NCBI GenBank assembly: GCA_021014325.1
Contig: CM037471.1
Coordinates: forward strand, 16,884,818-16,948,817
Reading direction: 5' to 3'
Length of the DNA stretch: 64,000 bases
From: Plazaster borealis
Taxonomy: Eukaryota > Echinodermata > Asteroidea > Forcipulatida > Labidiasteridae
The notes beneath the pieces were generated by a model, which saw only the letters and a program-made list of their open reading frames with translations, ran no database searches and was not told the origin of the DNA. Position numbers and translations under genes: made by a program. Of the stretch, positions 33,505 to 58,679 are shown one piece after another; position 1 is the first letter of the stretch, and each line of letters opens with the position of its first letter.

Positions 33505-36500
33505 CAGGGGTTGCCCTTAACTTTTTTTTCAACTAGCCAGCAGGACCAGTTGGCTTGATTGGGGGTTTCGGCTATCCGCCAAAACCACCTTTGTTTTCGT
33601 CGAGATTTTAATTTTTTTTATTATTATTATACTTCCATCCGAAAGTTCCCATAGCATTAACCCGTGAAACTTAGTTATGGTTCGATCTCAGGAACTACAG
33701 TCTTAAAACACACAAACGACACATCAAATGAAAGCTTGTGCTCTAATTTAGATCCAGCTGCAGTTGTGTTGAGTGTTTTTCGTTCATTTCTTGACGATAT
33801 TACCGATTTAAAAACGCCCGTCAAAAAAGCACGATCGCCGTGTCTGTGTACATCACAAGTCATTGGCGCTGTACGTAGAATACGGCCGTATCACACACAG
33901 CCTGTGTACACACAGATAAGGCTGCTGCAATACAGTGGATAGCTGTGTGCATGGTGTGTGCATGTACCGCGAAAAACAAGCACAAAATTGGGCTAATAAA
34001 ACTGTTTTAACTGAGTTAGTTTGGTTTGAAAGTCAATTTATAAAATCAATTTACATTTTACATGATTGAAAAACTGTCTGAGATTTTAACTTGCTGTTCT
34101 TGTTTAGCGATGTTTCGGTGCAAAACTTCGATCGTAGCAGTCAATAAATAGAATCTTGATTTTCATTGGTAACCACCAGTGTATGCTAGATGGTTCATTG
34201 CTAATGCTGGATACCAGGGAAATCTTGATGTTGCGTTGTATATTGATCGTGCAAATGTTTTAGCAACGGTGGGGGGGTTTTTCTACTGAAAATGCACATC
34301 AAGCACTTGTAAAACACACAAACGACACATCAAATGAAAGCTTGTGCTCTAACTTAGATCCAGCAGCAGTTGTTTTGAGTGTTTTTCATTCATTTCTTGA
34401 CGATATTACCGATTTATAAACGTATTTTTGAGAATTGTACCTTTTCTCCGTGTGTGATTTTGCGTAGACACGGCACGTAAAATACGGTCCTCTCTCACAG
34501 CCATGTATAGAGAGCCCGTCAGTGTGCAACGCAATATCGTACTGACCTTTGATCCTTCAATTCATGATTTATCTAACGATGGCAGGATATAGAGCGTGGA
34601 AATAGGGAAACACAAGAGGGCGCTATACAGGCTGACCATTAATATCTCAGATTTTTAGCGCCCAAAGGGTTATCAATTATTTAGCATCTTTCGTTCACCA
34701 CAACCCCATAAACACCTATTTTTACTCGTGTAAAACAATTCTCATGGACACAAGCATTACAGAAGGCAGTATTTGAACACACTAACGGCACATGTAACTT
34801 TTCATTTTTAGTTTTTAATTTATTTTTATATTTTTTAACGGCCTTTTTTCCCATATGCTTTCAATTACTAATAATCATTACGTCACCACCCCTTCAGAGC
34901 ACCTTCTGTCAACGTGTTTTTGTTCGAAGGCATTGCATGGGGACAAATCTTATACCATATTGTAGGTTATAATATCTTACTATGAAAAACAAGTTGTCGT
35001 CATTGTGACGTCATCAGGTGTCAAGTTAATTATTATTAAATACGGAAGCATTAAAGGGATAGTTGTTGGTTTTGGCCCATCACAATGTCAAGGTTGTGTG
35101 ATAGAAATTGCATCATAAAAGTGCTCTAAAACAATAGGTTCCATTTTCGTTAACTCTTTCACGTCTGGTGGACAATCGATCGCATCATCGGGACTAATTA
35201 ACAAACTACATTACGCCACCAAGACATTATTCAATTCTTAATGGTTCGCCTTCTTAAAGCCGAAACCCCAGTATTTGTTCGTAACAAATTCAGTTCTAGT
35301 TTTTAACTGGTCCGCAAGGTTTTTGACTGGTCCGTCAGTTTTTTTATAACATTTTTCATACTGATATGATTGAAACAATGTCCTGATTTTCGATCATCGC
35401 TATTTCAATTCAATGAATTGCAAGGTCAAGTTAACTATACATTGATAGCCATACTTTATTATGTTAAGACAGTTACTGTGTTCGTTAGGAGTACGTTTAC
35501 TTGTTGATGGTGTAACAATTTTGTTGTCATTATTATTAAATGAAAAATAATATTAATAACTTAACTTAACACAGGTGAGATTTTTCAGAAGCAAATTGGA
35601 AATGATCTTTGGTCTTGGATAGTTTCAGTTCATAGATGATGGTTTCAGTATCCAAAGACAGCAAGTAATTCCATGGGACAAGTACTTTTTTATGAAAGAA
35701 AATGCTTGTGGTCAATTAAAAACAAATAACTTTAAAACCGACTTGATAAAAAACCCATGAACTTGTTATTGATGATTGTCATTGATCTACGGTACCGGTA
35801 CCGAAGAAGGAGGGTTGGTGTACGCACGATCGCTGTAGACAATAGCATTCCTTCACTCACCCCGCAAAATAAACCCAAAATAAAAATCAACAAAACAAAA
35901 TCAAGAAGAGAAAATCTTACATTATACCATAAAATACTCTTTTTGTTCATCCAGAGTATCCTTAATTGGTCATTTTTTGTAAGCCTATACAGACGTTCTG
36001 TAGTTTTTCGTAAACAACCTAAAATTCCCACGGAACTGTACTCCGTTGACCATGCTGTCGACAGAATTTGCGTGCGTACCAGCAACGACAATGTTGTAGA
36101 TTACAGCGTGCGCACACCAGGGATGAATAACCGCTTTTCCCGAGCATGCGCAGAAACGTCAAGTCTTTGGTCAAGGCGTTTGTAACTTGGTTTTGTATGT
36201 TATCGCGTAATTTCACCAATAGAGGGCGTTTACTCTCGCACTATCAAATTGTTCTAAAACGCCCTCTAGCGTTCAATTTTATTGCATTTATTGTCGCACG
36301 CAAAGTAACGAAATAAAAAACTACAAGCCTGTAAATTGGAAACGGTGTGTCGCACGATCGTGCGTTGTGTACATATACATCGTGATCGTTATGTGTTGAG
36401 CGTTTCGCGGCACTTATATTTTTGACTGGTCAGCCGGACCACTTGGCAAGGTGTTTCAGCTGGTCCGCCGCCGTTTCAACTGGCATTTGGCCAGCGGACC

Positions 36501-36520
36501 ACCGTTAAGGTCGAACCCTG
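33505..36520. mobile_element. CAGGGGTTGCCCTTAAC-TIR element, host of HINE-2
   Basis: CAGGGGTTGCCCTTAAC at 33505 pairs with GTTAAGGTCGAACCCTG ending at 36520, with CTAGCCAGCAGGACCAGTTGG-like and GGACCAGC/GGTCCG repeats inside both ends. HINE-2 (33561-35299) sits within the left arm between TTGATT and TTTTTAACTGG. No clear 8-bp duplication was found. The ORFs at 35732-36219 are unrecognised. hAT is likely from the CAGGG end. Confidence 0.6.
33561..35299 (+). mobile_element. HINE-2, copy a
   Basis: The 5' end is GGGGTTTCGGCTATCCGCC. The 3' end has the inverted GCCGAAACCCC, then hairpin GTATTTGTTCGTAACAAATTC, then AGTTCTAG and a T run (35259-35299). This is the same plan as HINE-1 with different sequence. 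33570-34300 matches 42030-42668 plus 44951-45090 of copy b almost base for base in places, including CACAAACGACACATCAAATG. A second partial repeat of the latter lies at 34312-34430. GTGACGTCATCAGG lies at 35008. Confidence 0.8.
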
Positions 36521-36539
36521 TAAAATCTCTTGCTATCCC

Positions 36540-37250
36540 ATGGAGATGTGCTCCGCATTTCCGATCTTGAGAAATCAGACCCACTTGGAAATCTTTTATT
36601 TTTAATCTTCCAAAGGGGCGTTATGAAATTCATGCTTGATGCATTTTTGGATGGGCTAATTTAAGTCAATGGGGCAAGGTAATAAACAACAAGTGTGTGG
36701 CCTATGTGGCAAGAAAGAGACACTCCAGCATATGCTTAACAATTGCTCTGCCATGCTCAACCAAGGCTGCTATACTTGACAACACAATAACATACTCTGT
36801 CTACTTTACGATGCTCTGCAGGTGACCAACGAAGCCACATGGAAAATGTATTGCGATCTAAATGGTGCAAAAAAAATTGTTTGAACCACCATACCACCTG
36901 ACATTCTTGTCACCCAACAGAGACCAGACTTGGTACTCATTAGTCTCATCAAGAAATGCATTATAATTGTTGAATTTACAATCCCCTTTGAACAAAACAT
37001 AACAGTTGCTCATACAATTACAAGGAAACAAAATAAATACTCTGGTCTGGTCAGTAATCTTGAAGATCAAAGTTTTGTTGTTCACCTGTTTTGCATCAAG
37101 GTAGGCATGCAGTAGAGGTTTCATCACCCAAGACAATCTTAACAGTGTGCAATCACTCCTTTCACTTATAACAGTCGGTAACAAGATAATGAAACGATAA
37201 TCAAAAAAGCTTGTGAAGTCCCTCATTCACAGCGCCGTTTAAGCTTCTTG
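36540..37250 (+). pseudogene. LINE fragment with restriction-like endonuclease (R2/NeSL/CRE type)
   Basis: Broken frames give LSQWGKVINNKCV, CGKKETLQHMLNNCSAM, then ILVTQQRPDLVLISLIKKCI, IIVEFTIPFEQNI, KQNKYSGLVSNLEDQSFVVH and FITQDNLNSVQSLLSLI. The zinc knuckle (CxxCG..ETLxH...C) followed by RPD-x-IIxEFTxPFE fits the PD-(D/E)xK type nuclease that ends the ORF of REL-endo LINEs. Several stops and shifts mark it as dead. No RT was seen. Confidence 0.7.
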
Positions 37251-37740
37251 CACCGTTTTTTTTTCTAAGTACATGTATGATCAAGATTGGTCAATTGAAT
37301 GAATTTTTAAACCTTTTCAGTGTTTTGTTTTGCTTCTTTCGTTCCTTTTTTCTGCGGAGTTACGGGAAGGACTTTTACCCAACCAGTTCTTTTGCCTGGA
37401 TTTTTGTAGTGCACTTTTTTCAGTGGTTTTTAATATTGTGCTTGCTGAAATGATTAAATAAAATGTGTATATTATAACTACCTACTTATGGCCGCTGATA
37501 AAGGACATGAAACTGTTTTTGTCCTCCTTGATGATTCCTCTGCCTTCATCACAAGAGATCCTGAAACCGTGTTTCTGCATCTACTATACATATCCAGTAG
37601 GCCTACATGTATATCCCACTATGCAATCAGTTAGTTCAGATCCTGCCTCAAAAATCCTACTCATTGTATTGTCATGAACAATGATATTCTGGATGCACAT
37701 GTTCTTCTCTAATTTCACACAATTAGACAAATAACAGTAG
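37251..37740 (+). other. NSF intron, nothing recognised
   Basis: AT-rich DNA without recognised features. Confidence 0.35.
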
Positions 37741-37749
37741 ACAACTCAT

Positions 37750-37865
37750 GGTATATTGTGGCACAACGGCTGTCTGCCTAAGAACAGGCGCCCTCTGAGG
37801 GCTTATGTTGGTATATTGCGGCACAACAACTGTCTGCCTAAGACTAGGCGCCCTATTGTACTGAT
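37750..37865. repeat. 60-bp tandem duplication
   Basis: GGTATATTGTGGCACAAC...CTGTCTGCCTAAGA..AGGCGCCCT at 37750 recurs at 37810 with few changes. Confidence 0.85.
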
Positions 37866-38035
37866 GTTTAGCACAAGTCAGAAGTACAATAAAAGAATCT
37901 GGTGCATATTTCTAGAAACAGCCTTCCACCCAGAGATGAGCAACATGTAGGCTGCATCGTAAATGAGGCTAGGTTTAAAAACTTAACTTGTGGAAAAATG
38001 TGAAACAGCACAATAGAGATATCAATCAAGAGCAG

Positions 38036-38277
38036 TGCCAAATTTCAAGTAAAGAATCGGCGCTTACAGAAGCAGGGAATTCTGCACTTACGTCAAGTGT
38101 ATTTCACAGGTAAGCAGAGAATTTTTGCTTGTGCGCATGCGTACTCCACATTACTAGGCATTCTTCGCTTACACAGCTAGCGCAGAAATTCGGCACTTGC
38201 ACATAAGTGGAGAATGGTGATCGTAAGCGCAGAATTTAGTGGTAAAGCAGAGCCATGAAATTGGGCCTAGATTTCTT
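38036..38277. mobile_element. GCCAAATTTCA / TGAAATTGGGC MITE, copy 3
   Basis: Left GTGCCAAATTTCAAG and right GCCATGAAATTGGGCC are inverted. The inside is made of CTTAC/GTAAG pairs and GTATTTCACAGGTAAGCA, related to copies at 1466 and 24706. Confidence 0.55.
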
Positions 38278-38289
38278 CAGTGACAGCAG

Positions 38290-39000
38290 CAAGACAGTGA
38301 CCTCATCAAATTATCATGTACACATTGAAGACACCACCTTGAAAACATTATTAAGGCTAACGCTCTTAACAGAATGATATACGCCAACAACATGTACGTC
38401 TATGTCATCATGAATGAGCAGAATCGCCCAATTGTCCTCCCACAACTAGAACTTTGCCTGAATGACATAAGAGCTTGGTCTGTTATGAATTGAATGAAGA
38501 CAAGACAGAGGTCATCGAGGCTGGGTTATCCACATTTCATCTCGTTTCGGAAATCATTGGTGCCAACTTTTTTGGACGACTTTCCTTCATCACTGCTGGA
38601 CTTCATAGTGGGGGCACGAACACAGTGAGTTCCACGTTGATGTCGCATGGTGCCAGCATACCCAGCTGCTGGATGATACGCTGCTCTAGTGTATTGCATT
38701 ATCCATCAGTTGTCACGGTTACCAGGACCCACATGCTCTTGTTATAAATAACTCAGTAACAATGCTACTGCATATAATGATGATCTTCTCAAACCATCCG
38801 ATCCTGCTCGCAAACTCCGGTCTTACAACTCTAACCTCCTTATTGAGCCCATATCCAATCAATCATAAGGAGACTGATCTTTCTCACATGCTGCGCCACA
38901 CCTATGGAACAAATTGCCAGCACAAGTAAAATCATCTGTTTCTTTAACCCAATTTAAAAAAACCCTAAAGACTCATATTATTAGTGGATTGGGGAAGGGC
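38290..39000 (+). pseudogene. L2/CR1 LINE RT fragment
   Basis: Translation gives MIYANNMYVYVIMNEQNRPI, LPQLELCLNDIRAWSVMN and LNEDKTEVIEAG, which match YADDTQ...LE.CL.DIR.WM..N.LKLN.DKTEV of L2/CR1 RTs. The catalytic YADD reads YANN. After diverged sequence, 38775-38985 gives LLKPSDPARKLRSYNSNLL, then APHLWNKLPAQVKSSVSLTQ, FKKTLKTHI, the usual C-terminus. It is non-functional. Confidence 0.8.
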
Positions 39001-39009
39001 TGCAAAGTG

Positions 39010-39330
39010 TTGAGGTACTGCCAAGCATGTAGTACTGAGGCTCATGCTATGGAGATGTTCATGAAATGGTCAGTCAAGCGTAGCTTAGTCTCACCGATGT
39101 ACAACTTAACACAACGTTTACAGGTGATCTAATAAATCAGGTTGGCAGTGGTATGTACATGACAGTTCCATAGGTTTTGGAGCGGCCACAGGTTCTGAGC
39201 ATGCACATGCTGGGGTCAATGTGCCGACAGGTCTTACATCTTGGATGTCTGCTGGGTAGGGTCTTGCTGTCTTCAGGGAGAGAGGGGTTTAGAGCACAGG
39301 ACGGAGCTCACTAGGGTATTGTCGATTGAT
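39010..39330 (-). pseudogene. Penelope-like GIY-YIG endonuclease remnant
   Basis: On the minus strand, HPRCKTCRHIDPSMCMLRTC, then after a frame shift ITCKRCVKLYIGETKLRLTD. The CxxC pair and CKRC-x4-YIGET-x5-L are the signature of the GIY-YIG domain at the C-terminus of Penelope-like elements. An internal stop follows NLIY, and the expected R..EH is HF, so it is inactive. The RT part is not seen. Confidence 0.75.
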
Positions 39331-39339
39331 TGGTCACTT

Positions 39340-40180
39340 TTGAAGACGCATAGTTTCTCAAGTATCATGTGAAAGTATCAATGTGTTTTTAAAAAAAGGT
39401 TGAGTTTTAAAGCAATTATGCTGCATTTTGGTTTGTGCATGTGAAAAAAAACCAAAGGTCCAAGTGACTCTGTGCAATACAATAGGGTCACTGCATGGGA
39501 GTAAACTATATTGAGGAGCTAGAGTCTCAAACCCAAAAGCGTGAAAGTCTTCTTAACCACTTCATGTTGTTTTATTTATACAAACATAACAAATTATGGT
39601 AACATTTTAAGAACTTTTTTGAGCATTTTGAGTAATCGTTCTCTTTTGAACAATGAAACCCTGACTGGACATAGGAAAAACAACTTTGTAATTAGTTTTG
39701 GGATTTGATGTTGTCTTGTGAGAAAATTGAGTAGGCACTCCCTGTGATTCACGGAACTTCGGCCATGAGCCACAGCCAAAAACCTGCCATGGTATGCTGG
39801 ATCCTCGGAACGCTTGGACTTACCTTCCATTGAGTTGAATATAAGGACGAACAATGGTGGCAGCCTGTCCATTCTGGTATGCCACGTTTGTACAACAACA
39901 GGACAAATGTCTGGAATCAGGGGTTACAAGATAACCCCCAGAACCCCCGCAAAGGGATTTTACAAAGTATGTTTTCCAGAACCTGTTGTCGCTCTTTGTT
40001 TGTGTGAAACAAAGCATATCACAGCCTGCCTGTGCATGCTACACAATGGAAAGTCTGGGTGGATAGAAACGTCCGGCTGTCAGCCAAAAATTGAGGAAAA
40101 CCTGAAGTTGTTCCGGGCGCTAAATTTGCATATAAACACGTCATCTGACGCGAAGTGGTTATTATGATAGATATAGTATA
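39340..40180 (+). other. NSF intron, overlapping ORFs unrecognised
   Basis: A 117-residue ORF (39814-40167) and a 92-residue opposite ORF show no recognised motif. Cysteine-rich text in the former is not arranged as a known finger. Confidence 0.35.
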
Positions 40181-40346
40181 CAAATATTGACTGCTTCGAG
40201 TGCTATGGTTAAAACTACGACTCCCGAGGTGATCCTCAGACCGTTCTATTTTTCCGAGGCGCAGCCGAGGAAAAAAGGAACGGTCCGGGGATCACCAAGG
40301 GAGTCGGAGCTTTAACCATAGCACGAGCAAAAGCAGTCAATATTTG
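40181..40346. repeat. Long hairpin (fold-back), 166 bp
   Basis: CAAATATTGACTGCTTCGAG runs inward through GTGCTATGGTTAAA, GACTCC and GTGATCC..GACCGTTC. It is mirrored from GGAAAAAAGGAACGGTC to GCAGTCAATATTTG. The arms are about 70 bp with a loop around GAGGCGCAGCCGA. Confidence 0.85.
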
Positions 40347-40591
40347 TTTTTTATAGCACACCTCTTGCTTGTTCTGTAATCTGGTTGGCTGAAACACTGT
40401 CACGTGGGGTGAAATAATATAGTCTAGTGATCGCGCGCGCTTGTTTTGCGGGAATAGTGCCTGTCGGGCACTAGTCTTTGAAAATAGTGCCTGGTTACAA
40501 CGCCCTCTCTTGACTTGAACCGTGAACAGCAACTACAAAACTTCCTTTCTTTTCAAGATTTCTGTTCTTATTTCACATTTAAGACCGAGGT

Positions 40592-41804: not shown

Positions 41805-42939
41805 GAGTAGCATCAGTCTATTTTAATTTTAATTTGTATAATTGCTTTAATATTTCATGGTGTCACATATTTAACAGAAAAGCTGATGGCACCAATTCAT
41901 CTCAGTAATTTGACCGAGCTCCCATGTTTTTCTAATTACTTTAAAAAGAAACTTCAGTTTCACTGCCGAAACTTTTGTTTTTGTCTAGATTTATTAGGCT
42001 CTTGTTTTCGTTAATTTTTTGGGGTTTCGGCCTTACCGCCGAAACCACCTTTGTTTTCGTCAAGATTTTGATTTTGTTTATTATTATTATTTTACCATTC
42101 GAAAAATTCTCATAGCATTAACCAGTGCAATTTGTCGTTGTTCGATCTCAGGAACTACAGTCTTAAAACACACAAACGACACATCAAATGAAAGCTTGTG
42201 CTCTAACTTAGATCCAGCAGCAGTTGTTTTGAGTGTTTTTCGTTCATTTCTTGGCGATATTACCGATTTAAAAACGCCCGTCAAAAAAGCACGATTGCCG
42301 TGTCTGTGTACATGACAAGTAATTGACGCTGTAAGTAGCATACGGGCCGTAATCACACACACAGCTTGTGTACACACAGATAAGGCTGCTGCAATACATG
42401 TACAGTTGATAACTTTGTGCATAGTGTGTGCATGTACCGCACAAACAAGCACAAAATTGGGCTAATAAAACTGTTTTAACTGAGTTAGTTTAGTTTGAAA
42501 GTCAATTTATAAAATCAATTTACATTTTACATGATTGAAAAACTGTCTGAGATTTTAACTTGCTGTTCTTGTTTAGCGAAGTTTCGGGGCAAAACTTCGG
42601 CCGCAGCATGTTCGCAGCAGTCAATAAATAGAATCTTGATTTTCATTGGTAACCACCAGTGTATGCTACAATCCCGGCCATATCTCGTTGGGCCCCCCTG
42701 CCCCCTTTCAATGTTGGTTCCAATTGCCGACTGTGTTCTGAGTTACAGTCAACATTGAGCGGGGGGCGGGGGGCGGGGGGCGGGGGACGGGGGACAAATG
42801 TTTTGAATGTGAATGGGAAGTGCACATGGAATTGTTGTATATAACGTCAGTGAATTTTTGTAATTTTGTAATATGCAAATAATGCTTGGAAAAGATTGTG
42901 AATGTCCAAAAAAAGTGAATGTCCATAAAAGTGATTATT

Positions 42940-43173
42940 TTATGGGGATGGTGGTGTGTTGTTGTTGTTGTTGTTGTTTTTTGGGGGGGCTGCACCATCC
43001 GTTGGTGGGTGGAAGGCTTTTACAACAATTTTTGCAAATTCCTGGCGAGATGCAATGAGGGCCTCATTTGCTTGACTGTATGTTAATAAGTACACTTGTC
43101 GCATTTGACGGGGTCCAAGGGAAGGGTCTTCCATCTTGACCAAATAAGATGTTATGAGCAAAGACACATTCAA
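42940..43173 (-). pseudogene. Possible Rep-like (HUH endonuclease family) N-terminal fragment
   Basis: The frame contains MEDPSLGPRQMRQVYLLTYS, QANEALIASRQEFAKIVVKA. The VYLLTYSQA segment and the following SRQEFA..VV.AF resemble motif I (FLTY-type) and the first helix of Rep-like proteins found scattered in invertebrate genomes. The HUH motif and the catalytic Tyr region that should follow are absent. The frame instead runs into a poly-Asn stretch encoded by a (GTT)n microsatellite. Family membership comes from memory of sequence style, not from a search. Confidence 0.35.
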
Positions 43174-43179
43174 AAAAGC

Positions 43180-44742
43180 AACTTATACATGTAGGCTATG
43201 TCTCAGGTCATATCTTATTGGTCGTACAGAGAGTGCATTGTGTTATTAGTAACTTGAATACCCTCTGTCTGTATGGCGCTAAGCAACTGGTACCAGCGTG
43301 CATTGTGTTACACGTAATTTTATTACCCTCTCTTTGGTGCTAAGCAAAAGATTTTACGACTGCTTTTCTCACACTGCATATTCATGCTCGCTGAAATGGA
43401 CTCCTTGACATGACTTTGCTTTACTCGCTTTCACAAATAAAACATAACTATATTCATGGGTTAAACCTAAATTAATTATGTAACTTGGCTTGCTTCTTGT
43501 GTTGTTCGGTATAAAGTCCATAAAATAATATAAATGAAGACATGTGTAGCTTTAAAATAGCCCGTCCAAAACTGCATTGCCTTTCACTCTGAGGCGACAA
43601 TGACGATTCCTGGCACGACCGCCTTGCGCCTGCGCACAAAAATAATGTACCTGTCCAATGTAGTTGGTTGCGTTCATGTCTGACGGTTCACCACACGGTT
43701 CACCATAGCATTTTCACTGCTAACTTACCGTAAAATGTTTTTTCTTCAACACGAAAAGGCCATTACAGTCCACAAACAATACATAACCTGTTGATATTCT
43801 TTTCAACCACCTCATTCATTTTTTTGACACAAACTCAAACGGTTAACCCTTTATACCAAAATAGAAAAGAAATTTAATTAATTTCCTTATTTACTTTACT
43901 ACGGTGAACCGTGTAGACTTGATCCAAGCCTGCAATCGTTACTTTTAGTCAACTTGATAGCCAATACATTATTGCCCCAAATAGCGCCCTATTGTTAGCT
44001 TGGCCCATGATAGCTAATCTGTGGGGGCGTTTTTCGTGTCTCATACAGAGGAATAACCGCCACCTCAGACTTGAAATCAAGTCTATGGACACTGAGCATC
44101 ACTGCGCTTGAATTTGTATGCGACTCCATGGTGTAATGGCTAAGAGATACGCTTAACAAAGTATAATTATCAGTTGAAGCTAAAAGGACTCCAGGATGGT
44201 CAGAAAGCCGTTGTTTTTTATATTATCTATTTGTATCACCTTACTCGCCATACAGTTAATATTAATCGCTTTTACCCGTTCTTTCATTTTTCAAGTGCAT
44301 TTTTTATATTACTATTTTACTTATTTGGTATTAATGCTGACAAAATAATACGGGCGTAATGGTGCAACCCCGCACACCTTCCCAAATAGACAAATAAAAT
44401 ACAAAGTTCCCTGTGTGTGTCCTTTTGTGTTCACACGCTGTACTCGGCAATAAATAATCATTTACTGTCAATGCACAATTATAGTTAGCCCCCTTCCCCC
44501 ACCCAACAAAACATCATTACTGATTTGCACTTTTCCCGCAAGAAAACATAATTTACTGTCAATGCCCATCATAGTCAGCCCCCACCCCCCCCACCCCAAA
44601 CAAAAATACTTGCTGATTTAAAATCTGTTTTATTGCCCTACTCAGTTATAAATGCACATCCACTGTCTTTGGACATTCACAGTCCTTTAAAAGCATTATT
44701 TGCTAATTTAAAAACAAAAAAAAATTATGAAATTAACTCAGA
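43180..44742. other. Interior of the TA element, nothing else recognised
   Basis: GTGCATTGTGTTA with following ACCCTCTxTxT recurs near 43231 and 43300 (about 70 bp apart). CACAATTATAGTTAGCCCCC and CCCATCATAGTCAGCCCCC repeat near 44473 and 44562. No protein was recognised. Confidence 0.4.
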
Positions 44743-45355
44743 CAATCCCGGCCATATCTTGTTGGGTCCCCCTTAGCTGCCCCCTTTCAATGTTGGTTCC
44801 AATTGCCGACTGTGTTCTGAGTTACAGTCAACATTGAGCGGGGGGCGGGGGGCGGGGGACAAATGTTTTGAATGTGAATGGGAAGTGCACATGGAATTGT
44901 TGTATATAACGTCAGGAAAGGGTGGCCCAAGCATTTTGGCCGGGATTGTAGATGGTTCATTGCTAACGCGGGATACCAGGGAAATCTTGCTGTTGCATTA
45001 AATATTGATCGCGCAAATGTTTTAGCTTTTCAGTTGCGGTGGGGGTTTTTTCTGCTGAAAATGCACATCAAGCACTTGTAAAACTCAATGGATCAGTATC
45101 TTTTCTGAAGATTTCACATGAATTGATGAATGCCTACTTAGTATGGAATCTGCTCCGTTGTTTAAACCACGCAAGCCTCCTAATCCCACCATTGTCCGGA
45201 GTTTGGAATTAACAACCTGCTCGCTGAATCGTGACTCCAGTTTCGGATTAGTATTGCTAGCGATAGCGTCCATATAGCACCTCTATTGATTGTCTTACAA
45301 TACAAGCCATAAATAACAATTTTCAGGTTGTTAAAGGTATTTCCTTTTTTTTATT

Positions 45356-47036
45356 AGGTGTTCGGGCAATAGCCGAACACCTATTGTTTTTGTTCAGGTT
45401 TTTTTTTTATTTTTTAGTTTTTATTATTTTTCGGAATCTCGTTTGTCTGCAAGCAAACGCATAGTTGCAAAATTTATATTAACTTGAAACTTTATATGTT
45501 GGTAGACCATAACTTGTAGATGATTCTAAAAGTTGTTACGTCATGGTGACGTCATCAGTTTTTGAAAAACATTAAATCAAAGTTTATTATTTCAAAAAAT
45601 CATAACTCAAGAATTATATAAGCTATTTCAACGATCTATAAATCATCGGATAGGTCTGGCAAAATGTAGCAAACGCCACACAGAGTGTGACCCCATTGGA
45701 CCTCAGCTTCCTGTTTAAACCGGAAGTTGAAAAGTTCACAATTCATACTTTAAGAAATATTCATACATTTTACAAACACCTTACTCACAATTTTAACATC
45801 AGGTTGTATGTCCTTAAGTCCTCTCAAACTTTTCCACAGACATGTTACCTATTTGACCTTAACTTCCGGTTGAAATCCGGTATCGAATGACTCTTAAATT
45901 AAATTGCGTGTGAAAAGAATTGCACTGAAAACACATACAACGCGCTATAGTGTTGAGATCGTTCCGGGTGTTATCACATGTTGCATACATGCGAGTAGCG
46001 TGATCTAATTAGTTATGCACACATATAGAACAGTCTGTCATGCGCAGTTGTTAACACATTTAATGTGTGCAAGTACAAGGCCCAGGTTTTCACCCCATAT
46101 GTTTAGAGTAAAACCCGAAGAATAGGTCATTGGAGCAAAGTGGAATGTTGACGGTCGGCTCTACAACTTGCTCTGTGAGTTTTGTAGAAGATTGACGTCA
46201 TCAAAAATTAATATCGCCGTGGATCGCGTGAAATACAAGATGCAGAAATACAAGATTGATAAATGCAGAAAAAATGTGGAATCGAGCTGAAACCTTGCAT
46301 GTATTCAAGTTGGGATGTGTTACATCTAGAATTTAATGTCGCATTACGATGACGTCATCAAGCTTTACGTGAGTCGGCTTAAAGGTGCACTTTTCATAGA
46401 TGTATGTTTACGGCAAAAATGCGCGATTAAAGCTATAACCTTGCATGTGTTCAAGCCGGGATTTGTAACATCCAAAATTTAAGATCCTGTTCAAATGACG
46501 TCATCAATTGTCATATAATTATGAAGTCACCTTAAAGGTGCAGTTAAACTTGATCTATTTAAAGTTTATTATTTCGAAAAATCATATCTTGAGAAATATA
46601 TCTATTATGATTTTAAGCTTTGCATTTTTTGTGAATGTTTTTACGTGTTTAAGTTCTGTATAATTGATAATGACATGATTTGACCTGGCTTCCTGTCCAA
46701 CCGGAAGTAAAATAAATATATATTAAGAGGCTCTTTTTTTGAATTGTCAGTAAAAGTCTTGTATACAGTACAGTTTATGAATATTTACATGAACATTGAA
46801 ACAGAATGTTCAATAAATACACGTTCTAGAGCTCAATGCAGTCTTAGGTAGGAACGTTAGCATTTATTTCCCGTGTAAACTAAATGTATACACGTAACTG
46901 ATTTACACTTTGAAATTTCAAAAGCTATCAGCAATTTTTTCATCGACTCAATAAAATATTTCACACATTGACACAACACTGACCCCAATGAAATCCGAAC
47001 ACCTAGTGTTTGTTCCAACAAACACTAAATCTCTAG
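45356..47036 (+). mobile_element. HINE-1, complete-looking, forward
   Basis: The 5' hairpin AGGTGTTCGGGCAATAGCCG...CCGAACACCT at 45356 follows TT. The 3' end has CCGAACACCT...wait-free direct junction to AGTGTTTGTTCCAACAAACACT, then AAATCTCTAG at 47036 followed by TTTT. The body has GTGACGTCATCAG, CTTCCTGTTTAAACCGGAAG, CTTCCGGTTGAAATCCGG, the 180-bp subrepeat from 46250 and CTTCCTGTCCAACCGGAAG near 46690. No ORF above 70 residues. Length is 1681 bp. It serves as the reference copy. Confidence 0.85.
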
Positions 47037-48578
47037 TTTTTTATTATTCTTGTTACAAAAGGGTTGAAAACAATTTTTTGCTCGTAACGGGCCGACAAAT
47101 TACCTCGTAACCGTGTTCTGGCTACTTCTGTGCTCGTGCAATCCATATTTAAATGCATTGAAACACACACGGGGCAGTTCGGGACCGACAAAAAACCTAG
47201 TATTAATTAACAGGAACCTTGTAATATGCGAGCTTGTAATAACGGGAGTCGACTGTAATTTCTGTGCCACTTGTACCTTTACAGCACATGTACTTTATCT
47301 TTCATTTATAGTTTACGACATATTTTAGCTCCTCACAAGTGCCACATTCATGACATTTCATCCTCCCACATGGTCCGAACTTATACCGGTCCATCTGTTC
47401 CAAACTGGAAATTCAAATACAATAGAAATTTCATCATAAAAAAGTGCCCTAAAGCGACAGCTTCCATTTTCATTAACTTGACCCACAATCGATCGCCATC
47501 ATCGGGACTGTGACAACTTATAAATTAACAAACTACATTACGTCACCAAGACATTATTCAATTCTTAATGGTTCGCCTTCTTAAAGCCGAAACTTCAGTA
47601 TTTGTTCGTAACAAATTCAGTGCTAGTTTTTTTTAACTTTTAATTTTAATTTTTCAGACTTACGGAAGTCATTGAAATTAGGCACTATTCGTTCTAAGCG
47701 GTCTTTTTCATAGTTCCTAAAGAGCAATTGCAATGAAACTTTCAGTGATGAAAGGCATTGGTGCAATAATGATCCTAAACCATTGATGTCATGATGACGT
47801 CATCACCTGTCACGTGACATTATCTTAAAGGTTTCTATTTTAAATATTCAAAAATCCATATCAAATCAGCCACAAGTGACCGTAGGTTTCTGTTTGCGGG
47901 ATTGTATAGGGATAAATTAGGTCTTCATTTTATTCAGTGTGCGTGACCTCACATACCGGAAGTGCCTTCGTAATTCAAAAGTGATAAATGTTATGAAAAT
48001 GCTTTCAACGATGTTAGTGTCTGGCAAGGGTGTGCAGTTAAAAAAAATACCGATGACGTCACGATACACAAGAGCGCCCTCTAGCGGCAGGTTGAAAACT
48101 GTTCAAAATGGACTTTTTGAAGATATGTGTGGAGAAGTTTTGTGTAATCACTTCAAAATTTACACATATGTTGATCGTCAGGCAGCCATCATATGTGTGA
48201 AGTTTCAGATCAATGACGTCATCGGGGGTCACGTGACGCAGCATTAAAGGTGCCTTTTTTGAAGTCGTATTATCTCCCGAAGTATTAGTGCGATCATGTT
48301 GAAACTTAGTAGGTTGTTTGATATTGGCAAGTTCTTGTAAATTTTGAAATGACGTCATGATGACGTCAGCACATGATTGTTTATGATTTTTTCAATTTTT
48401 TGCACCGTTAAGTCATAAATTGCTAACTGAACATTATATAATCTAAATTCTTTTTTAAACAGGCATGATACGTCATAACTGCTTTGAATACAAAAAGACT
48501 TTCATTTTCCTTTGAGTAATTTGAAAATGTTATTGGCGAAACAGCTCGGCATTTGTGCACAAATGCAATCATGTCTAG

Positions 48579-49049
48579 TTTTATTTTTTATTTTCTTCAA
48601 AAATTCTTTAATTTGTTTTAATGGAACTTTATATGTATATGATTTTATATATCTTGATTAAAAGCAGTGAAATTCACTATTTAATATTCATGCCATAAAT
48701 AATCGTGAGTAATTCTAATTGCTGATACTAGTTTGCAAGATAGAATCCAACTTTCTTGATGCCTCCTTGCAGCATTGTCTAATCATGGCTCAATGCTTTT
48801 TCATGACTATTCTTTTCACAGCAAGCTTGCTACTGTTTCCCTGGATGCCCTATGTGCCACTCACATGGCAGAATGCTGCCTGTCATTTGAAAATATTTAC
48901 ATTCACACGGATAATAATGTGTTCCTAACCACACAAATGTTACATATAATGGAGCAATTTGTACACGAACATTTGTTGATTCCAAGTGTTTCTTCATTAC
49001 ACTCTTAAAAATGACTTGATGCCAATTATATTATTTCCTTTTTCTGCAG
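48579..49049 (+). other. NSF intron before exon d, nothing recognised
   Basis: Ordinary AT-rich intron. Confidence 0.4.
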
Positions 49050-49128
49050 TGTCACCATACGTTTTTGACAGAAATACTCAGCTAATTGGGAGCATTAAAT
49101 TTGAAGTGGATTTCTTGCAGAAAAAAAA
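49050..49128 (+). CDS. NSF: NSF coding exon d
   Basis: Acceptor TTTTTCTGCAG ends at 49049 and donor GTAAGT starts at 49129. After completing Val the exon reads SPYVFDRNTQLIGSIKFEVD, then FLQKK, and ends with two A's. It corresponds to vertebrate SLYTFDKAKQ...IEIDFLQKK at the end of the Na subdomain. The preceding intron is about 23 kb, the longest in the window, and holds the DIRS, HINE-2 and HINE-3 insertions. Confidence 0.92.
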
Positions 49129-49644
49129 GTAAGTTTTCATGATAAAGTGATCAGATGTTGTGGAACCATCCGGACTCTCCAGTTGGACCTTCTGACGATC
49201 CTCTCAATCTTTATTTTATTGACGGCTCATAAAGAGGTTATCAATCCGAGTTGGCCTCTCTTTACTAAGTGGGCTTTTGTTTTCAGTTAAAACTTTTACA
49301 GACACATCAATGGAATTCAGATAAACACATTTTAAACAAATCTCCAGGAATGCTTCTGGCAGATGTGTAAACACGCTTAGATATTCCAGTGTGTAGCATG
49401 CACAGTGCATGCATTCAGCATTTTACGTTTCATTTGCTCAGCAACAAATGGGGACAAATGGTACTTTTGTATAATTGTGTAATCCCCAATTTCAGACCTT
49501 GCTTCTTTTGTTGAATAAACCAGTATTAGGAGAGATTGTTGGTGGCATGGGAGATATTACATGTAGTCCGAGATTTTAGCATGCCATGCCTGATTATTGG
49601 CCTTGGCGAAGGTTTGGCTGATCATTGTGTTATTTAAGTATTAA

Positions 49645-50021
49645 TTAAAGGCACTGTACACGTTTGGTAATTACTCAAAATATGTATTAACATAAAAACT
49701 GACTTGGTGACGAGCAACGGAGAGCTGTTGATAGTATAAAACATTGTGAGAAACGACTCCCTCTGAAGTAAAGTAGTTTTTGAGAAAGAGGTAATTTCTC
49801 ACTAAAATAATAAAAGACTTCTTGCAAGAAGCCTTTTATTCCTATCTGAAAGCACACAAATTTGTAAAACAAGGGTGTTTTTTCTTTCATCATTTTCTTG
49901 CAACTTCGATGACCAATTGAGCCCAAATTTTCACAGGCTTGTTGTTTTATGCATAATGTTGGGATACACCAAGTGAGAACACTGGTCTTTGACAGTTACC
50001 AAACAGGTTCAGTGCCTTTAA
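49645..50021. mobile_element. TTAA MITE (AGGCACTG ends), piggyBac-like
   Basis: TTAAAGGCACTGTACACGTT at 49645 and the inverse CAGTGCCTTTAA ending at 50021 form TIRs with TTTGGTAA.T inside. TTAA is the target on both sides. A right-half copy lies at 52745-52876 inside a HINE-1, ending GATGCCTTTAAG. Confidence 0.8.
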
Positions 50022-50554
50022 TAAGAAGAAACAAATTCCTCGTAACAAGTGTTGGCTTCTTATTACTGCACAATACCTCAAAAGAATACATTTTATTTTC
50101 ATTATTTTAGGCATGTGTGCATTTAATTCAAAGATGACATGTACCCCTTGTGGTTTGTTACTTAGAATGATGTTAAAGATTAGGGGACAAAAACTTTTTT
50201 ACTAAATCCATCCATACTATAGCATAATGCACCCAACAATGTAGCAATGTACAGCCCATAACAACAGTGAAAAAGGCCAGTAAAATGCGTTATGGCGCGT
50301 GTCTCCAATGTTTGTTTTTTTACACTACATGCAGCAATGTGCGGTTCTTTGGAAATATAAAATCCATGGATTGTCATTTTGGGGGGGCTCATATCTCAGT
50401 CAATTCTGATCAGATTTTGTTCAATAATGAGAGAGTTTGCAGATGAAAGTGATACTTTTTTTCCTGTGCGAAATTTACAAGGCTTAATGCAGAATCCAGA
50501 GAGAGTTTTAATAACATGGAGACAGACAGACATACAGCCAGATATCTTTACCAG

Positions 50555-50915
50555 AGCGACATTGTGGGGTTTCCCCAGGTTGTGTCTATGATCCCTTTTC
50601 TTTAATCTTTTTGGTTAAAAACATTGTGGGGTGCACCCCACAATGTGAACAAACCCCCCACAAGTACAGTTCCTACCTATACATAGTCCCCTAGTGTCGC
50701 TCTTGTAAGCTCAGACAGACAGACATCTGTGTTTAGGAGAGTGACATAGTGGGCATTCCACAGGTTGTGACTATGATCCCTTTTCTTTAATCTTTTCTGT
50801 TTTAAACATTGTGGGCATGAGCCCACAATGTAAGAAAAGCCCACAAGTACAGATCCTACTTACAAGTAGCCCCTCAATGTAGCTCTTGTAAGCACAGACA
50901 GACAGACAGACACCA
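50555..50915. repeat. ~190-bp tandem repeat with perfect palindromes
   Basis: The unit CATTGTGGGGTTTCCCCAGG.TTGTGTCTATGATCCCTTTTC...CATTGTGGGG.GCACCCCACAATG...GTCCCCTAGTGTCGCTCTTGTAAGC.CAGACAGACAGAC occurs twice. In unit two G runs are shortened (GTGGGCATGAGCCCAC). Each unit has a stem of at least ten base pairs. Confidence 0.8.
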
Positions 50916-51029
50916 TTCAGCAAATTGTAATGAGATTCTAGATTCAAGATTCTGTGTTAATTGCCAAGGCATTTATTTTGAGAAAAACAATCACACGCAT
51001 CTTCAATTTAATGTTATCTAGCTCCTTTT

Positions 51030-51089
51030 GCAGTTCACAACTGTTTAGAAAAGATGCTTGCAGTTCACAACTGTTTAGAAAAGATGCTT
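51030..51089. repeat. 30-bp direct duplication
   Basis: TGCAGTTCACAACTGTTTAG..AAAAGATGCT is present twice back to back without mismatch. Confidence 0.9.
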
Positions 51090-51138
51090 TGCCCCTTAAT
51101 AGGCAATATCCAAATTGGCTTCAATGAAATCAATTATT

Positions 51139-53188
51139 AGGTGTTCGGAGCATAGCTCAAAACACCTCTTGTTTTTTAGGTGTTCGGAGCATACAGCTTG
51201 GAACAACTCTTGTTTTTTTAAATTTTAGGTGTTAGGGAGGAATGCTCCGGAACACCTTTTGTTAGGTGTCCGGTCATTAAGCCCGAACAACTCTTTGTTA
51301 TTATTATTATATTTTTCCTTCTTTGTTTTGCTTATTCTTCTGATAGTCGATTGTCCGCAAAAAAAAAGCATAGTTGTGAACCTTGGATCAACTTGAAACT
51401 TAACGTGAAGTTAGAACATAGCTAGCAGAAGCTGTGTGAGTGTTGACGTCATGATGACGTCATCAGGTGTCAAATTACAAGCCATTTAAGTTCAAAAAGT
51501 GACCATATGCCAATGCCTGTATGTCTCTGAATATTAAAGCTACGGTATTCATATTTAGGCATATGATACATCAAGACAAGGGCAACATTTAAAAAGTTAA
51601 CGCCAAAATCATATGACCTTTACTTTCAGTCGTACTGAAAGGTCAAAGTTTGCCGTTGCGCAATTCTTTTAAAAAAACCATTTCCCGGCAAAAATCTAAA
51701 CTTTTGTGTATTTGATCAACTTCAAATTTACACCATGTTAGGACCTTTATAAAACCTCAATCAAGTATGTGACGTCATTAGTTGTTGAAATACATTAAAT
51801 CAAAATGTATTAATTCAAAAGCTATTAAAACAATCTATACATCATCGGATAGGTCTTGAAAAATGTAGCAAACGCTACACAGAGTGTGACCCCATTTGAC
51901 CTTCACTTCCGGTTCAAACCGGGAGTTGAAAATTTTAAAAATTCATATCTAAAGAACTACTTATATTTTAGTAACAATTTTTACATCAGGTTCTATGCCA
52001 TTCATCCTTCACAAATTTTTCCACAGAGATGTTACCAATTTGACCTTAAAATGTTACCAATTTGACCTTAACTTCCCGTCGAAATGGGACGTTAACGCTC
52101 ACATATTTATTGGACGCATTAAAAACCACGCATTAAGAACGGCACGCATTAAGTACGGCACTGAATCTAATCCAGCAGCACGTGCTGGCTGTTGCGCTCA
52201 ATTGATCACAGGGTTCAAAGTCCATCAAACCCGCACATAGTCTAGTCTCTGTTCAAGGTTCCATAACCTGATTTGGCATTACGCATTGTAATGTTAGTCT
52301 CTAAAACAGCCGTCCATGCAAATTTCGTTAACAATCAAATGCCATGCTCGGTCGTGTGCATTTTTGCACTTTTTTGACTTTTGCAAAAGTATGTAGTTTG
52401 CTAGCACACCACGAAACAGTAACAGCACCACTCGCCTTTACAGTGTCATCATGACGTCATCAAGCATCACGTGCCGTCACCTTAAAGGTGCACTTTACAA
52501 AGATTTATATTTACGGCAAAAATGCGTGATTAAGCTAAAACCTTGCATGTATTCAATCCGGGATTTGTAACATCCAAAATTTAAGATCCTGTTCAAATGA
52601 CGTCATCAATTGTCATATATATGAAGTCACCTTAAAGGTGCAGTTTAACTTGATCTACCTAAAGTTTAATATTTCGAAAAATCATATATCTTGAGAAATG
52701 CATCTATTATGATTTTAAGTTTTGCATTTTTTGTAAATGTTTTATTTTCTTGCAACTTCAATGACGAATTGAGCCCAAATTTTCACAGGCTTGTTTGTTA
52801 TTTTATGCATATGTTGGGATACACCAAATGAGAACACTGGTCTTTGACAATTACCAAACGTGTACGATGCCTTTAAGAAGCTCTTTTTTGAATTGTCTGT
52901 AAAAGTTTCGTATACTAACTATCAGTACAGTTTATGAATATTTACAAAACAATTTTCACAAATGCTCAAATAATACATGTTGTAGAGCTCAATACAGTTT
53001 TAAGTAGGAACATTAGCATTTATTTTCCGTGTAAACTAAATGTATACACGTATTAGATTTACACTTTGAAATTTCAAAAGCTATCAACAATTTGTTCATC
53101 GACTCAATAAAATAGTTCACACATTAACAACACTGACCCCAATGACATCCGAACACCTAGTGTTTGTTTCAACAAACACTAAAATCTA
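51139..53188 (+). mobile_element. HINE-1 with four serial 5' hairpins
   Basis: AGGTGTTCGGAGCATAGCTC at 51139 is followed by further AGGTGTT/AGGTGTCC starts near 51178, 51227 and 51264, each with an inverted partner. The body contains GATGACGTCATCAGG, CTTCCGGTTCAAACCGGGAG, the GTCATCAAGC subrepeat and a half MITE (52745-52876). The 3' end has CCGAACACCT, then AGTGTTTGTTTCAACAAACACT and AAAATCTA with T run at 53188 (terminal G lost). Confidence 0.8.
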
Positions 53189-53224
53189 TTTTTTTGTTTG
53201 TTTTTTTCTGTTTTTTCCTTAATT

Positions 53225-55283
53225 AGGTGTTCAAGTGAAACCCGGAACACCTCTTTAGTTTTTTAAAAGTTTTTTTTAGGTGTTCCGGCATTAAGCCCGA
53301 AGAACTCTTTGTTATTGTTCATTTAAAAAAAAGTTCTTCTGATAGTCGTTTGTCCACAAGAAAATGCATAGTTGCAAACGTTTGATGAACTTGAAACTTT
53401 GCATGTAGTTAGAGTATAATTAGCAGATGCTGAGCTAGTTGTGACGTAATGATTACGTCATTAGGTGTCGAATTACAGTAAATCAAAGTTCAATATTTCA
53501 AAAAATCATAACTCGATAACCACTAAATGGATTCCTACAATCTATTCATCATCAGACAGGTCTTTTAAAACCCCACAAACGCTACACAGAGAGTGACCCC
53601 GTTTGACTTTGACCTCTGGCTCAAAATGTAAGTTGAACATTTTGTTAGTAATAGCCCGCGAAAGCATGTGGCTGGCTGTTCTGCTCCATTGATCACATTT
53701 AACCTGAAACGTGCGTTACTACACGTCACATTCATGGTGAGCCCAAAACGAATAGCTCATTTCAGATCCATGGTGGCACTATATCAAACTAATGGTCGTT
53801 TAATTACAGCGATCGGTGACAAAATATTTCCTCTGCGACCTTTGCCGACTGGGAAGTTCGACTGTAGACAATGATTACAGGCATGAGTTTTTCGGTTTTT
53901 TCCCTTTCAAATTTGTGGTCTTCGAGTTCAATGTGAATTTGATATAAAATTTGGGTGAGTTGTTTGGGGTATACATTTGGATCTCGCTAATCTCTCTTCT
54001 TGGTCTTGGTCTTGGAAATTGTAAGTTTACTCATTTACCTTTACACGCTTCCGTTCGTAATAAATTGCCGCCCGGCATGGCAGCGGCCGGCCCAATATGC
54101 GTTGATTTTTTTCTTCCATGTGCAACGCGTTCAATTGATTTGTGTAGACTTCTTTCATTCTTTCTCCGCTTCATTCATGAACGGTTTGACCATATTATAC
54201 ATGTACAGTGTATGTTTACTGTTGCAGCAAAAGAACGAGTGGAGACATAGAAAGGTCTACTGACAACAACGCACAGTGTTTTGGATGCCCGCGCATCGTT
54301 AGACTTTTTTTACCAGTCGTCAGTACACACCTTCATAGTGCCGTTTCTTCGATACGTTTAATGTGTTTTACGGCTGGAGATATTTTTATGCATTGAACTA
54401 TGACCTGGAAGAAACTTCGAGACATTGCATGAGTGTGCGACACACGTGTGGGGAGATTCGTTGACGTTTGACGTCTCACATTATTTTCCAAAATTCTATG
54501 GTTTATAAACTGTCGGGATCTTGGAGACATACTAAAAGGTGTTTGAAGGACAAGTTTCAATGGCCAAAGGGGGCAACACTTTAACACAATTATTTACTAT
54601 CACAGGTAAAAAGACCCCCCAAAAATCAAAATTTGTAACAAAAGCATGACTGCTCCGTTCATAATCGTTTATTTTTGTGGAAGTAAGTTCCGAATATCAT
54701 TTTATTTTGAGCTTTTTATTAAGACAATACGTCTAGCACTGTTATGATTTCGTCTTTTTTAAAAGTATTTTCCTCCTATTTACATGTCCTCGATTCCACA
54801 CATGGTCCCCAAAACGCCAGAGGGATTCACTGAGTGCGACGCTGACGCCTGGGTAAACTTGCCCAAATTCCGGACACGCAAACATTCCGGACTTTGCCCA
54901 AAATCCAGACATGCAATTTTTAGCGTTAATTTTTTAAAATTTTATATCATCGTGTATTCTCATGCCTCATGCCTCAATGCATAACTTTCTTGTTAGCCTT
55001 CTGTTGGCTTGGTGGCAACAAGAGGGTATTTTTCTGACCTGTTTTGGTGATTTGTATGATTTTTGATAATTTAGAAAGTTGAATTGGAAAAAGATCAACA
55101 TTAGTTTTACTGTGATCAACACCGGCATTTACGAGAATCCAACTTTTAAATCACGTTGAACACGTTGAAGAAGTACAATATGAACAACAATAAGTCAACA
55201 TAATGATATAGCGCATTAACAAAGCACTGACCCCAAGGATACCCGAACACCTAGTGTTTGTTTCTACAAACACTAATTTCTAG
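53225..55283 (+). mobile_element. HINE-1, carrying a CAGGCATG MITE
   Basis: It starts AGGTGTTCAAGTGAAACCCG after TT, with a second 5' hairpin at about 53278. The 3' end at 55283 is CCGAACACCT, AGTGTTTGTTTCTACAAACACT, AATTTCTAG. Two bases (TT) later the next copy begins. Family blocks include GGATTCCTACAATCTATTCA. A MITE occupies 53878-54974. Confidence 0.8.
53878..54974. mobile_element. CAGGCATGAG MITE, long form
   Basis: CAGGCATGAGTTTTTCGG at 53878 and TATTCTCATGCCT (with CATGCCT doubled) near 54974. The inside shares long segments with 31996-32638 but is 450 bp longer. Target duplication not clear. Confidence 0.7.
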
Positions 55284-55285
55284 TT

Positions 55286-56387
55286 AGGTGTTCGTAGCAT
55301 AGCGCGGAACACCTTTTGTTTTTGTTCGGTTATTTTTTTTCTTTCTTAATACTTCTTCTTCTTTTTCTTCTTCTTCTTCTCCCCCATCTCTGTCCACTAA
55401 CAAAAGCATACTTCCCAAGCTCATATAAACTTGAAACTTCACTTATAGTTAGATATTTATTGGGGGCAGAAACCGTTTTAGTTACGTCATGATGACGTCA
55501 TCAGGTAATGAGAGACATTAATTTAAAGTTTATTATTTCAAAAAATCATAACTCTAGAACCCTATGTTGGATTTTTACAATCTATACATCATCGGGAAGG
55601 GCATCAAACACTGAACAAACGATACATTCAGTGTGACCCAATTTGACCCGACTTCCGGTTCAAATCGTAAGTTGAACATTTCAAAAATTCATATCTCAAT
55701 AACTACCTATAATTTCATCTTAATTTTTATATCAGATAGTAGGCCTGTAAGCCTTCTTAAATATTTGCACATAGATTATACCAATTTGACCTAAATTTCC
55801 GGTCGAAAACGGAGGTTAAAATATACGTATCTCTTGACCGCATTTACTGTGCCAATGCAAAAGCACTGTGACTGGCTGTTTCGCTCAATTGATCAGAAGG
55901 TTCATTGATCAGCCACGAAGCCTGTTTTGGCACGAGGCTTTGTTATGTAGTTTAATCCATGCAAAAACGTAATGTCAGCGCTTTTGACAGCCAACAAAGA
56001 CACACTAAGCCCAGTGGTATGGCGGTAAGACAACTACTCTAGCAGTACAAATGTCGCGTGTTCGAATCCCACCCGACTGATTCCCTTGGTTTTTTTACTC
56101 GGGAGAGTACTGAGTATACAGTGCCTAATACACATAGGGAAAGGGTTAAAACCAAATGATGAAGATACACTTCTCATATTAACACAACCTTCAAACTTCG
56201 CACGTAGTTATCTCTTTACTACAGTAGGAAACCGCTCCAACGACGTCATGGTGATGTAATCGGGTGTTGAATTACATTAAATTCAAGTTTAACATGTACA
56301 ACTTTCCTGATTTAACTTTTAGTACTTACCTGCTATTCACACAATCCGAACACCTAGTTTGTAATTCTACAAACACTACAAGTCTAG
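55286..56387 (+). mobile_element. HINE-1, directly abutting the previous copy
   Basis: The 5' hairpin AGGTGTTCGTAGCATAGCGC...GGAACACCT starts at 55286. CTTCTTCTTCTTTTTCTTC, CATGATGACGTCATCAGG, CTTCCGGTTCAAATCG and CTGGCTGTTTCGCTCAATTG follow. The 3' end at 56387 is CCGAACACCTAG, GTTTGTAATTCTACAAAC, ACAAGTCTAG then T. A tRNA-derived SINE lies within. Confidence 0.8.
56001..56150 (+). mobile_element. tRNA-derived SINE
   Basis: TAAGCCCAGTGGTATGGCGG matches the A box of the tRNA promoter and GTTCGAATCCC (56060-56070) the B box, about 45 bp apart. The tail GGGAGAGTACTGAGTATACA is not tRNA-like. This suits a SINE head plus body. The acceptor stem does not pair well, so it is not a working tRNA gene. 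Confidence 0.65.
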
Positions 56388-58672: not shown

Positions 58673-58679
58673 ATTGTAA

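Follow-up and report, generated by a model that had tools for sequence, protein, structure and literature searches.

What are the short repeated elements that crowd a 64,000-nucleotide (nt) stretch of the Plazaster borealis genome (contig CM037471.1, positions 16,884,818 to 16,948,817), and how did some of them come to lie inside one another? Three families, HINE-1, HINE-2 and HINE-3, were analyzed throughout this stretch, which is referred to below as the window. Based on their ends and surroundings, they are very probably (probability about 0.9) related non-autonomous families of rolling-circle transposons of the Helitron2 group, some of them nested in the T-tracts of others. This is a known kind of element and a described process, with clear nesting, and the families are added to a well-described group. 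The window is animal DNA, as indicated by one tested exon of NSF (the vesicle-fusion ATPase), for which the 34 residues translated from positions 18511-18612 gave a best PDB match of 4.1e-06; further NSF exons near 15336-15420 and 60220-60297 were recognized by eye only.

HINE-1-like DNA was found by self-BLAST to make up ∼12.8 kb (20%) of the window. When the spans 33561-35299 and 42021-48578 were joined to it, the HINE total came to 19.3 kb (30%), a figure that counts in one unrelated 2.3 kb insert within the second HINE-2 copy (HINE-2b). The measured HINE-1 elements were 1.1 to 2.3 kb long, and HINE-1 DNA lay beyond the span covered by a first-pass annotation of the same stretch as well, for example at 2209-4426, 15891-24668 and 56388-59886. 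The sequence AGGTGTTCGG occurred 30 times at no more than one mismatch, against 2.36 expected, and none of 100 shuffles got to 30; GGGGTTTCGGC occurred 4 times, against 0.26 expected.

The 3′ ends were searched on both strands by a blind rule consisting of a perfect stem (≥7), a loop (≤8), a gap of 3-10 nt and CTAGTT. Nine matches were obtained, and all nine were HINE ends (6 HINE-1, 2 HINE-2 and 1 HINE-3); on 60 dinucleotide shuffles, the same rule gave a mean of 0.1 matches and a maximum of 1. A list of ten 3′ ends was also drawn up by hand, with a degenerate end near 20040 (−) left off, and TT came next in 10/10. The first-pass annotation had described a hairpin, a few bases, CTAG and then T in all three families, and this was borne out at nine of the ten listed ends, again in all three families; the end at 53188 departs from it, reading CTA then T without the G.

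For the 5′ ends, the blind rule comprised TT, palindromic arms of 8 nt (one mismatch allowed), and a TTGTTT or TTTGTT tail. Of its 12 matches, a count that has no shuffle control, 11 were HINE starts, and the twelfth, at 48583, was AT-rich sequence behind HINE-3. All 18 hand-listed starts were preceded by TT, as the first-pass annotation had proposed, and read AGG or GGG after it; a weak candidate at 5071 (−), preceded by AT, was left off the list. At least 8 T were present in the 12 preceding bases at 9 of the 18 starts, compared with 12% of all TT sites. When 14 of the 16 HINE-1 5′ hairpins were folded (the decayed starts 24307 and 22563 being left out), energies of −18.7 to −3.9 kcal/mol were obtained. 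Among the ten most regular of the 16, to which the pair counts are confined, pair 8 formed in 8/10 (once as T-A for C-G, with C-G in 7/10) and pair 10 in 7/10.

The same annotation had placed the 5′ motif, in inverted form, just inside the 3′ hairpin of HINE-1 and HINE-2, and in both families it was indeed seen directly before that hairpin. Inverted matching of the 5′ and 3′ repeats extended to 8-10 of 10 or 11 positions across five HINE-1 elements, to 9/11 in HINE-2b and to 11/11 in the first HINE-2 copy, HINE-2a (33562-33572 against 35269-35259). The inner 3′ copy stops ∼30 nt short of the element end, which makes the ends asymmetric (asymmetric terminal inverted repeats, ATIRs). One detail of that annotation had to be corrected: the CTT microsatellite of HINE-1, taken there to be central, is 5′-proximal in the copy at 55286 (nt 67-93) and in the copy at 18273 (−) (nt 41-55 and 60-74), and was not found by the rule used in the other three of the five HINE-1 copies checked.

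The features published for the ends of non-autonomous Helitron2 and Helentron elements match those of the HINE ends, as far as the descriptions in PMC3627910 and PMC4067079 go. A 5′ terminal palindrome was found in HINE-1 and HINE-2 (with weak folds in 3/14 HINE-1 hairpins), an inverted 5′ repeat abutting the 3′ hairpin on its 5′ side in the same two families, a 3′ hairpin a few bases ahead of a fixed end (9 blind matches; CTAG in 9/10), and insertion into T-rich sequence with T on both sides (TT before 18/18 and after 10/10). In the passages of PMC3627910 that describe the Helitron2 group, short asymmetric terminal inverted repeats are likewise reported, with the 5′ repeat forming a 5′ hairpin and the 3′ repeat lying 20-30 bp from the end, immediately ahead of the 3′ hairpin, and with insertion behind T-runs; for the short Helitron-1N1_CRe elements of that group, no target duplication is reported there. 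The window families differ in ending in CTAG with sequences of their own, and no RepHel protein was seen in the window (compare PMC3627910). Palindromic subterminal repeats are shared with HINE-Mo; a 3′ palindrome, a T-rich target in which two T or more border the insertion to left and right, and, in some copies, tandem repeats or microsatellites are shared with HINE-Mo and DINE-1, as portrayed in PMC4067079. In the same account, the 5′ repeat of HINE-Mo lies 2-4 nt inside the end, whereas here it stands at the end if the T is counted as target, and DINE-1 is credited with a conserved core.

Mechanistically, a Rep-helicase made elsewhere and supplied in trans would nick the 5′ end, one strand would be copied by rolling circle up to the 3′ hairpin, and the product would be inserted between T and T. 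The mobilizing enzyme is inferred, because no Rep, helicase or endonuclease domain was detected (Pfam, E 0.01) among the 85 open reading frames (ORFs) of the window, a stop-to-stop scan of at least 85 amino acids that decayed or shorter coding pieces would escape. The only Pfam matches were a reverse transcriptase (RVT_1, in one of the 85 ORFs), DUF4817 and two weak ones (0.0064 and 0.0069). By eye, broken reverse-transcriptase-like frames were also noticed at 9971-12899 (−).

Besides this missing partner, several observations weigh against the assignment to the Helitron2 group. The target-site duplication test was run on the seven elements with both ends, the innermost start being taken for stacks, and the longest match between the end of the left flank and the start of the right flank was TT alone in five; HINE-2b had TTTTTT, and the flanks of HINE-1 copy a (HINE-1a, 45356-47036) shared the 9-mer direct repeat TTTTTTATT. 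The latter could be a duplication or a chance match within a T-rich target, and it did not recur in the other six elements. Consistent duplications, by which the Helentron or Helitron2 proposal was to stand or fall, were thus not seen, yet the result was not zero; for HINE-Mo and DINE-1, the absence of target-site modification has been demonstrated, HINEs being described as inserting into T-rich sequence without it (PMC4067079). Three of the 14 folds were weak (51264, −4.8; 53278, −7.2; 23137, −3.9 kcal/mol), and at hairpin 18273, 2/10 ATIR bases disagree with the 3′ partner presumed for it. Covariation inside the HINE-1 hairpins is slight, because pairs 1-7 are invariant, and so uninformative on the stem, and pair 8 varies once; pair 9 forms in only 2/10. 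For HINE-3, a search upstream of 42021 for the 5′ end gave a weak candidate only (46/78 columns against HINE-2a), and all HINE copies were drawn from one window. The proposal of non-autonomous Helentron or Helitron2 elements of the DINE/HINE type therefore held in the terminal features tested (5′ palindrome, ATIR, 3′ hairpin and T-side target), with a mixed outcome for duplication.

A narrower form of the Helitron2-group assignment, toward which we lean, is that the elements are strict Helentrons, whose partner carries both Rep-helicase and endonuclease, as for DINE-1. The T-rich target and the palindromic subterminal repeats agree with mite HINE families, and Helentron proteins are reported in sea urchin, Hemichordata, Cephalochordata and others (both in PMC4067079). 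On the other hand, the 85 scanned ORFs held no partner gene, and Helitron2 elements lacking the endonuclease share this type of end, according to the element descriptions in PMC3627910 and PMC5148889. Miniature inverted-repeat transposable elements (MITEs) or foldback elements of a cut-and-paste transposon would account for inverted motifs at both ends and for the one copy flanked by TTTTTTATT; this origin is highly improbable, given that the 3′ inverted copy ends ∼30 nt inside the element, so that the ends are asymmetric rather than symmetric terminal inverted repeats (TIRs), and that five of seven elements had no duplication beyond TT rather than one of fixed length. Still less probable are canonical Helitron1 elements, whose 3′ CTRR rule is obeyed by CTAG and whose 3′ hairpin is present, but which are contradicted by the 5′ ends (TT followed by AGG or GGG, where Helitron1 has TC at the start and inserts between A and T) and, as defined in PMC3627910, lack the 5′ palindrome and the inverted copy before the 3′ hairpin seen here.

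The three families had been described in the first-pass annotation as unrelated, with the plan conserved rather than the bases. Neither statement survived comparison of the 3′ ends, which align beyond the common plan: when 5000 random ends built on the same plan were used as a control, only 1 scored against HINE-1a as high as HINE-2a, 0 against HINE-2a as high as HINE-3, and 39 against HINE-1a as high as HINE-3. At the 5′ ends, HINE-1 and HINE-2 were identical in 33-36 of 51-52 columns in three comparisons, and none of 2000 mononucleotide shuffles equaled any of them, although this control does not preserve the plan. Moreover, HINE-3 matched 16292-16094 and 17305-17140 (69%), inside the HINE-1 element 18273..15999, so that conservation of plan without bases is too strong a statement. 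From these alignments, we read HINE-1, HINE-2 and HINE-3 as diverged families from one lineage.

When the flanks were joined in silico at two nested sites, HINE elements were shown, as judged by alignment, to sit within the T-tract of another copy at both places, since the joined flanks matched an uninterrupted HINE-1 5′ region. The first site lies in the HINE-1 cluster 15999-18391 (−), which has three 5′ hairpins (18391, 18332 and 18273). Here the element 18273..15999 (−) sits in the T-tract of a resident with hairpin 18332, of which a truncated body resumes at 15891-15998 (−). With this element removed, the joined hairpin, T-tract and body aligned across the joint with two uninterrupted copies, the one at 55286 in 132/168 columns and the one at 18273 in 128/156 columns. 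The second site is a resident HINE-1 5′ hairpin with its T-tract at 53225-53277 (+). Behind the hairpin, HINE-1 copy c (53278-55283, +) sits in the T-tract, and HINE-1 copy d (55286-56387, +), which has the CTT microsatellite, begins two T after the CTAG of copy c; the resident body, lacking a separate 5′ hairpin, appears to resume at 56388-57480 (+), with other sequence inside it at ∼56450-57020 (limits by eye). With 53278..56387 removed, hairpin 53225 and body 56388 aligned in 84/115 columns with the HINE-1 copy 23137-23707 (+), whose uninterrupted 5′ region was the reference for this nest. Four of the seven listed HINE-1 3′ ends (16002, 4386 and 2273 on −; 56387 on +) adjoin a HINE-1 5′ region that lacks a hairpin and consists of a CTT or T-rich stretch followed by body. 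Such a region is expected after the 3′ end of an element that was inserted in the T-tract of a resident.

Stacked 5′ hairpins were found as well, four HINE-1 loci opening with 2-4 of them in succession (51139/51178/51227/51264; 53225/53278; 18391/18332/18273 on −; 59932/59886 on −). Seven of the 18 starts lay 30-75 nt behind another hairpin start, compared with 1.9% of TT sites (269/13,999; binomial 2.6e-08), and among the T-rich starts (at least 8 T in the prior 12 bases) 5/9 fell in those zones, compared with 145/1,686 (8.6%) of equal TT sites (binomial 4.4e-04). Starts 51264 and 59886, both among the seven, fall short of the T-rich rule. The probabilities are rough: the zones derive from the very hairpins being counted, the list of starts was compiled by hand, and the members of a stack that has moved in one piece do not represent independent events. 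The T-rich tract right behind the 5′ hairpin would be a landing site that the elements offer one another, and repeated insertion there would yield one body behind several 5′ hairpins once re-transposition, beginning at the outermost 5′ end, had stopped at the first 3′ end. We tentatively propose, at somewhat less than even odds, that this tract serves as a built-in landing pad, favored as a target by further copies whether or not they belong to the same family; nests and stacks of 5′ hairpins would enlarge through self-insertion and afterwards move as chimeric units with several 5′ ends.

Against this account of nests and stacks, it must be counted that neither joint can be placed to the base, both lying within T-runs, and that the joined flanks were compared with diverged paralogues and not with an insert-free version of the locus itself. 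Hairpin 53225 is closer to 18273 (0.91) than to 23137 (0.70), so colinearity alone pairs it with body 56388. The test of likeness within stacks had little power, with 11 within-stack pairs, and hairpins 18391 and 18332 of the same stack are 0.94 alike.

Two other origins of the stacks were considered. One is local tandem duplication by slippage instead of insertion, in favor of which are the two hairpins 94% alike in the 18391-stack and the slightly higher mean likeness within stacks (0.75, 11 pairs) than between them (0.72, 80 pairs). This difference was not significant (permutation P 0.10). For 10 of the 11 stacked hairpins, the best partner was in another stack (18391 being a near tie), a weak count given that most candidates lie outside. 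Hairpin types recur across stacks, with likenesses of 0.91 for 51264/53278, 0.91 for 53225/18273 and 0.94 for 51139/18391; moreover, the spacers differ, and resumed bodies were found behind inserted elements. Slippage as the main cause of stacks was rejected on the likeness comparison, low as its power is, and is unlikely. Because like hairpin types recur in different stacks, most stacks look like separate arrivals, not slippage, to go by hairpin similarity; the 18391/18332 pair could be either.

The other origin, abortive rolling-circle events that stopped at the 5′ hairpin and left hairpin-only inserts of ∼35 nt, appears equally doubtful. The outer hairpins of the 51139-stack have no adjoining bodies of their own, and the CTTG then T past the hairpin resembles the 3′ CTAG then T; yet the outer hairpins 18332 and 53225 do appear to own bodies, and re-transposed nested copies, as proposed for Fusarium, would yield the same stacks (PMC5148889).

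Self-insertion followed by re-transposition has a published counterpart. In the Fusarium Helitron2 model outlined in PMC5148889, transposition of a nested copy begins at the outer 5′ end and finishes at the first 3′ end; FoHeli elements can have multiple 5′ termini (at least two) ahead of one 3′ end, as in the window, which is explained there by self-insertion with re-transposition. The window differs from the FoHeli case so described in that stacks reach up to four, with hairpins of differing sequence, that two interrupted residents go back in register, and that the apparent landing site is the T-tract behind the 5′ hairpin (PMC5148889). Tandem arrays and neighboring insertions are reported for bats, silkworm and maize, and are suggested for HINEs, in PMC4067079. 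If the landing pad is real, short tandem hairpin repeats could arise from rolling-circle transposons in an animal genome by this path. Were self-landing to hold across the genome, it would be an animal case of the Fusarium proposal that 5′ ends gained by self-insertion transpose as a unit. The nests allow sites to be compared within the window itself, with no need for a second genome, and they tie the shared architecture to target preference.

The remaining copies were placed as follows. HINE-2a (33561-35299, +) has the 5′ palindrome, the 3′ ATIR at 35259-35269, the hairpin and CTAG at 35296-35299. An internal duplication of 113 nt (34310-34422 against 33704-33816, 96%) suggests that two HINE-2 copies may have been joined in it as a chimera. 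HINE-2b (42021-47626, +; CTAG 47623-47626), 90% identical to HINE-2a over 650 nt, is broken by a TIR element (42668-44946) and by HINE-1a (45356-47036, +), which has a single 5′ hairpin, the 3′ ATIR at 46995-47004, a hairpin and CTAG at 47033-47036. HINE-1a is flanked on both sides by stretches matching HINE-2a; when its uninterrupted site was sought in HINE-2a, that part was found to differ between the HINE-2 copies. HINE-3 (47627-48578, +) is placed as the sequence from behind HINE-2b to a 3′ end that has the hairpin GCATTTGTG/CACAAATGC and CTAG at 48575-48578. HINE-1 copy b (51139-53188, +) carries the four hairpins 51139, 51178, 51227 and 51264 and ends in CTA. Two stacked HINE-1 5′ hairpins lie at 59856-59932 (−), the inner one with T-A at pair 8, and two HINE-1 3′ ends at 2209-4426 (−), with CTAG at 4386-4383 and 2273-2270, each followed by the HINE-1 5′ CTT region without a hairpin. 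The element that ends at 4383 may have its decayed 5′ end in the weak hairpin-like start AGGTGTTCAC at 5071 (−). The ATIR variants of hairpin 18273 and of the 3′ end at 4426 (AGGTGTTCAA, TTGAACACCT) match, but one long element between them was rejected, as the NSF exon at 15336-15420, recognized by eye, would fall inside.

Several minor observations were made in the window. No match was found by Rfam at the gathering threshold or by ARAGORN in the window, and exact-match scans of viral_contigs with three terminal patterns found 0. The insertion at 42668-44946 in HINE-2b has the inverted ends CAATCCCGGCC/GGCCGGGATTG, and HINE-2a, uninterrupted at ∼34187-34189, points by eye to a TA duplication for it; near its right end, it carries a second module of ∼180 bp, 89% similar. 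The palindrome TGACGTCA, which we take to be a putative CRE/ATF site from its sequence only, occurred 40 times in the window, against 0.8 expected by base composition (positions include 23647, 23667, 46350, 52452, 57385 and 57405), and 27 of the 40 fell within HINE-1-like DNA, which is 20% of the window.

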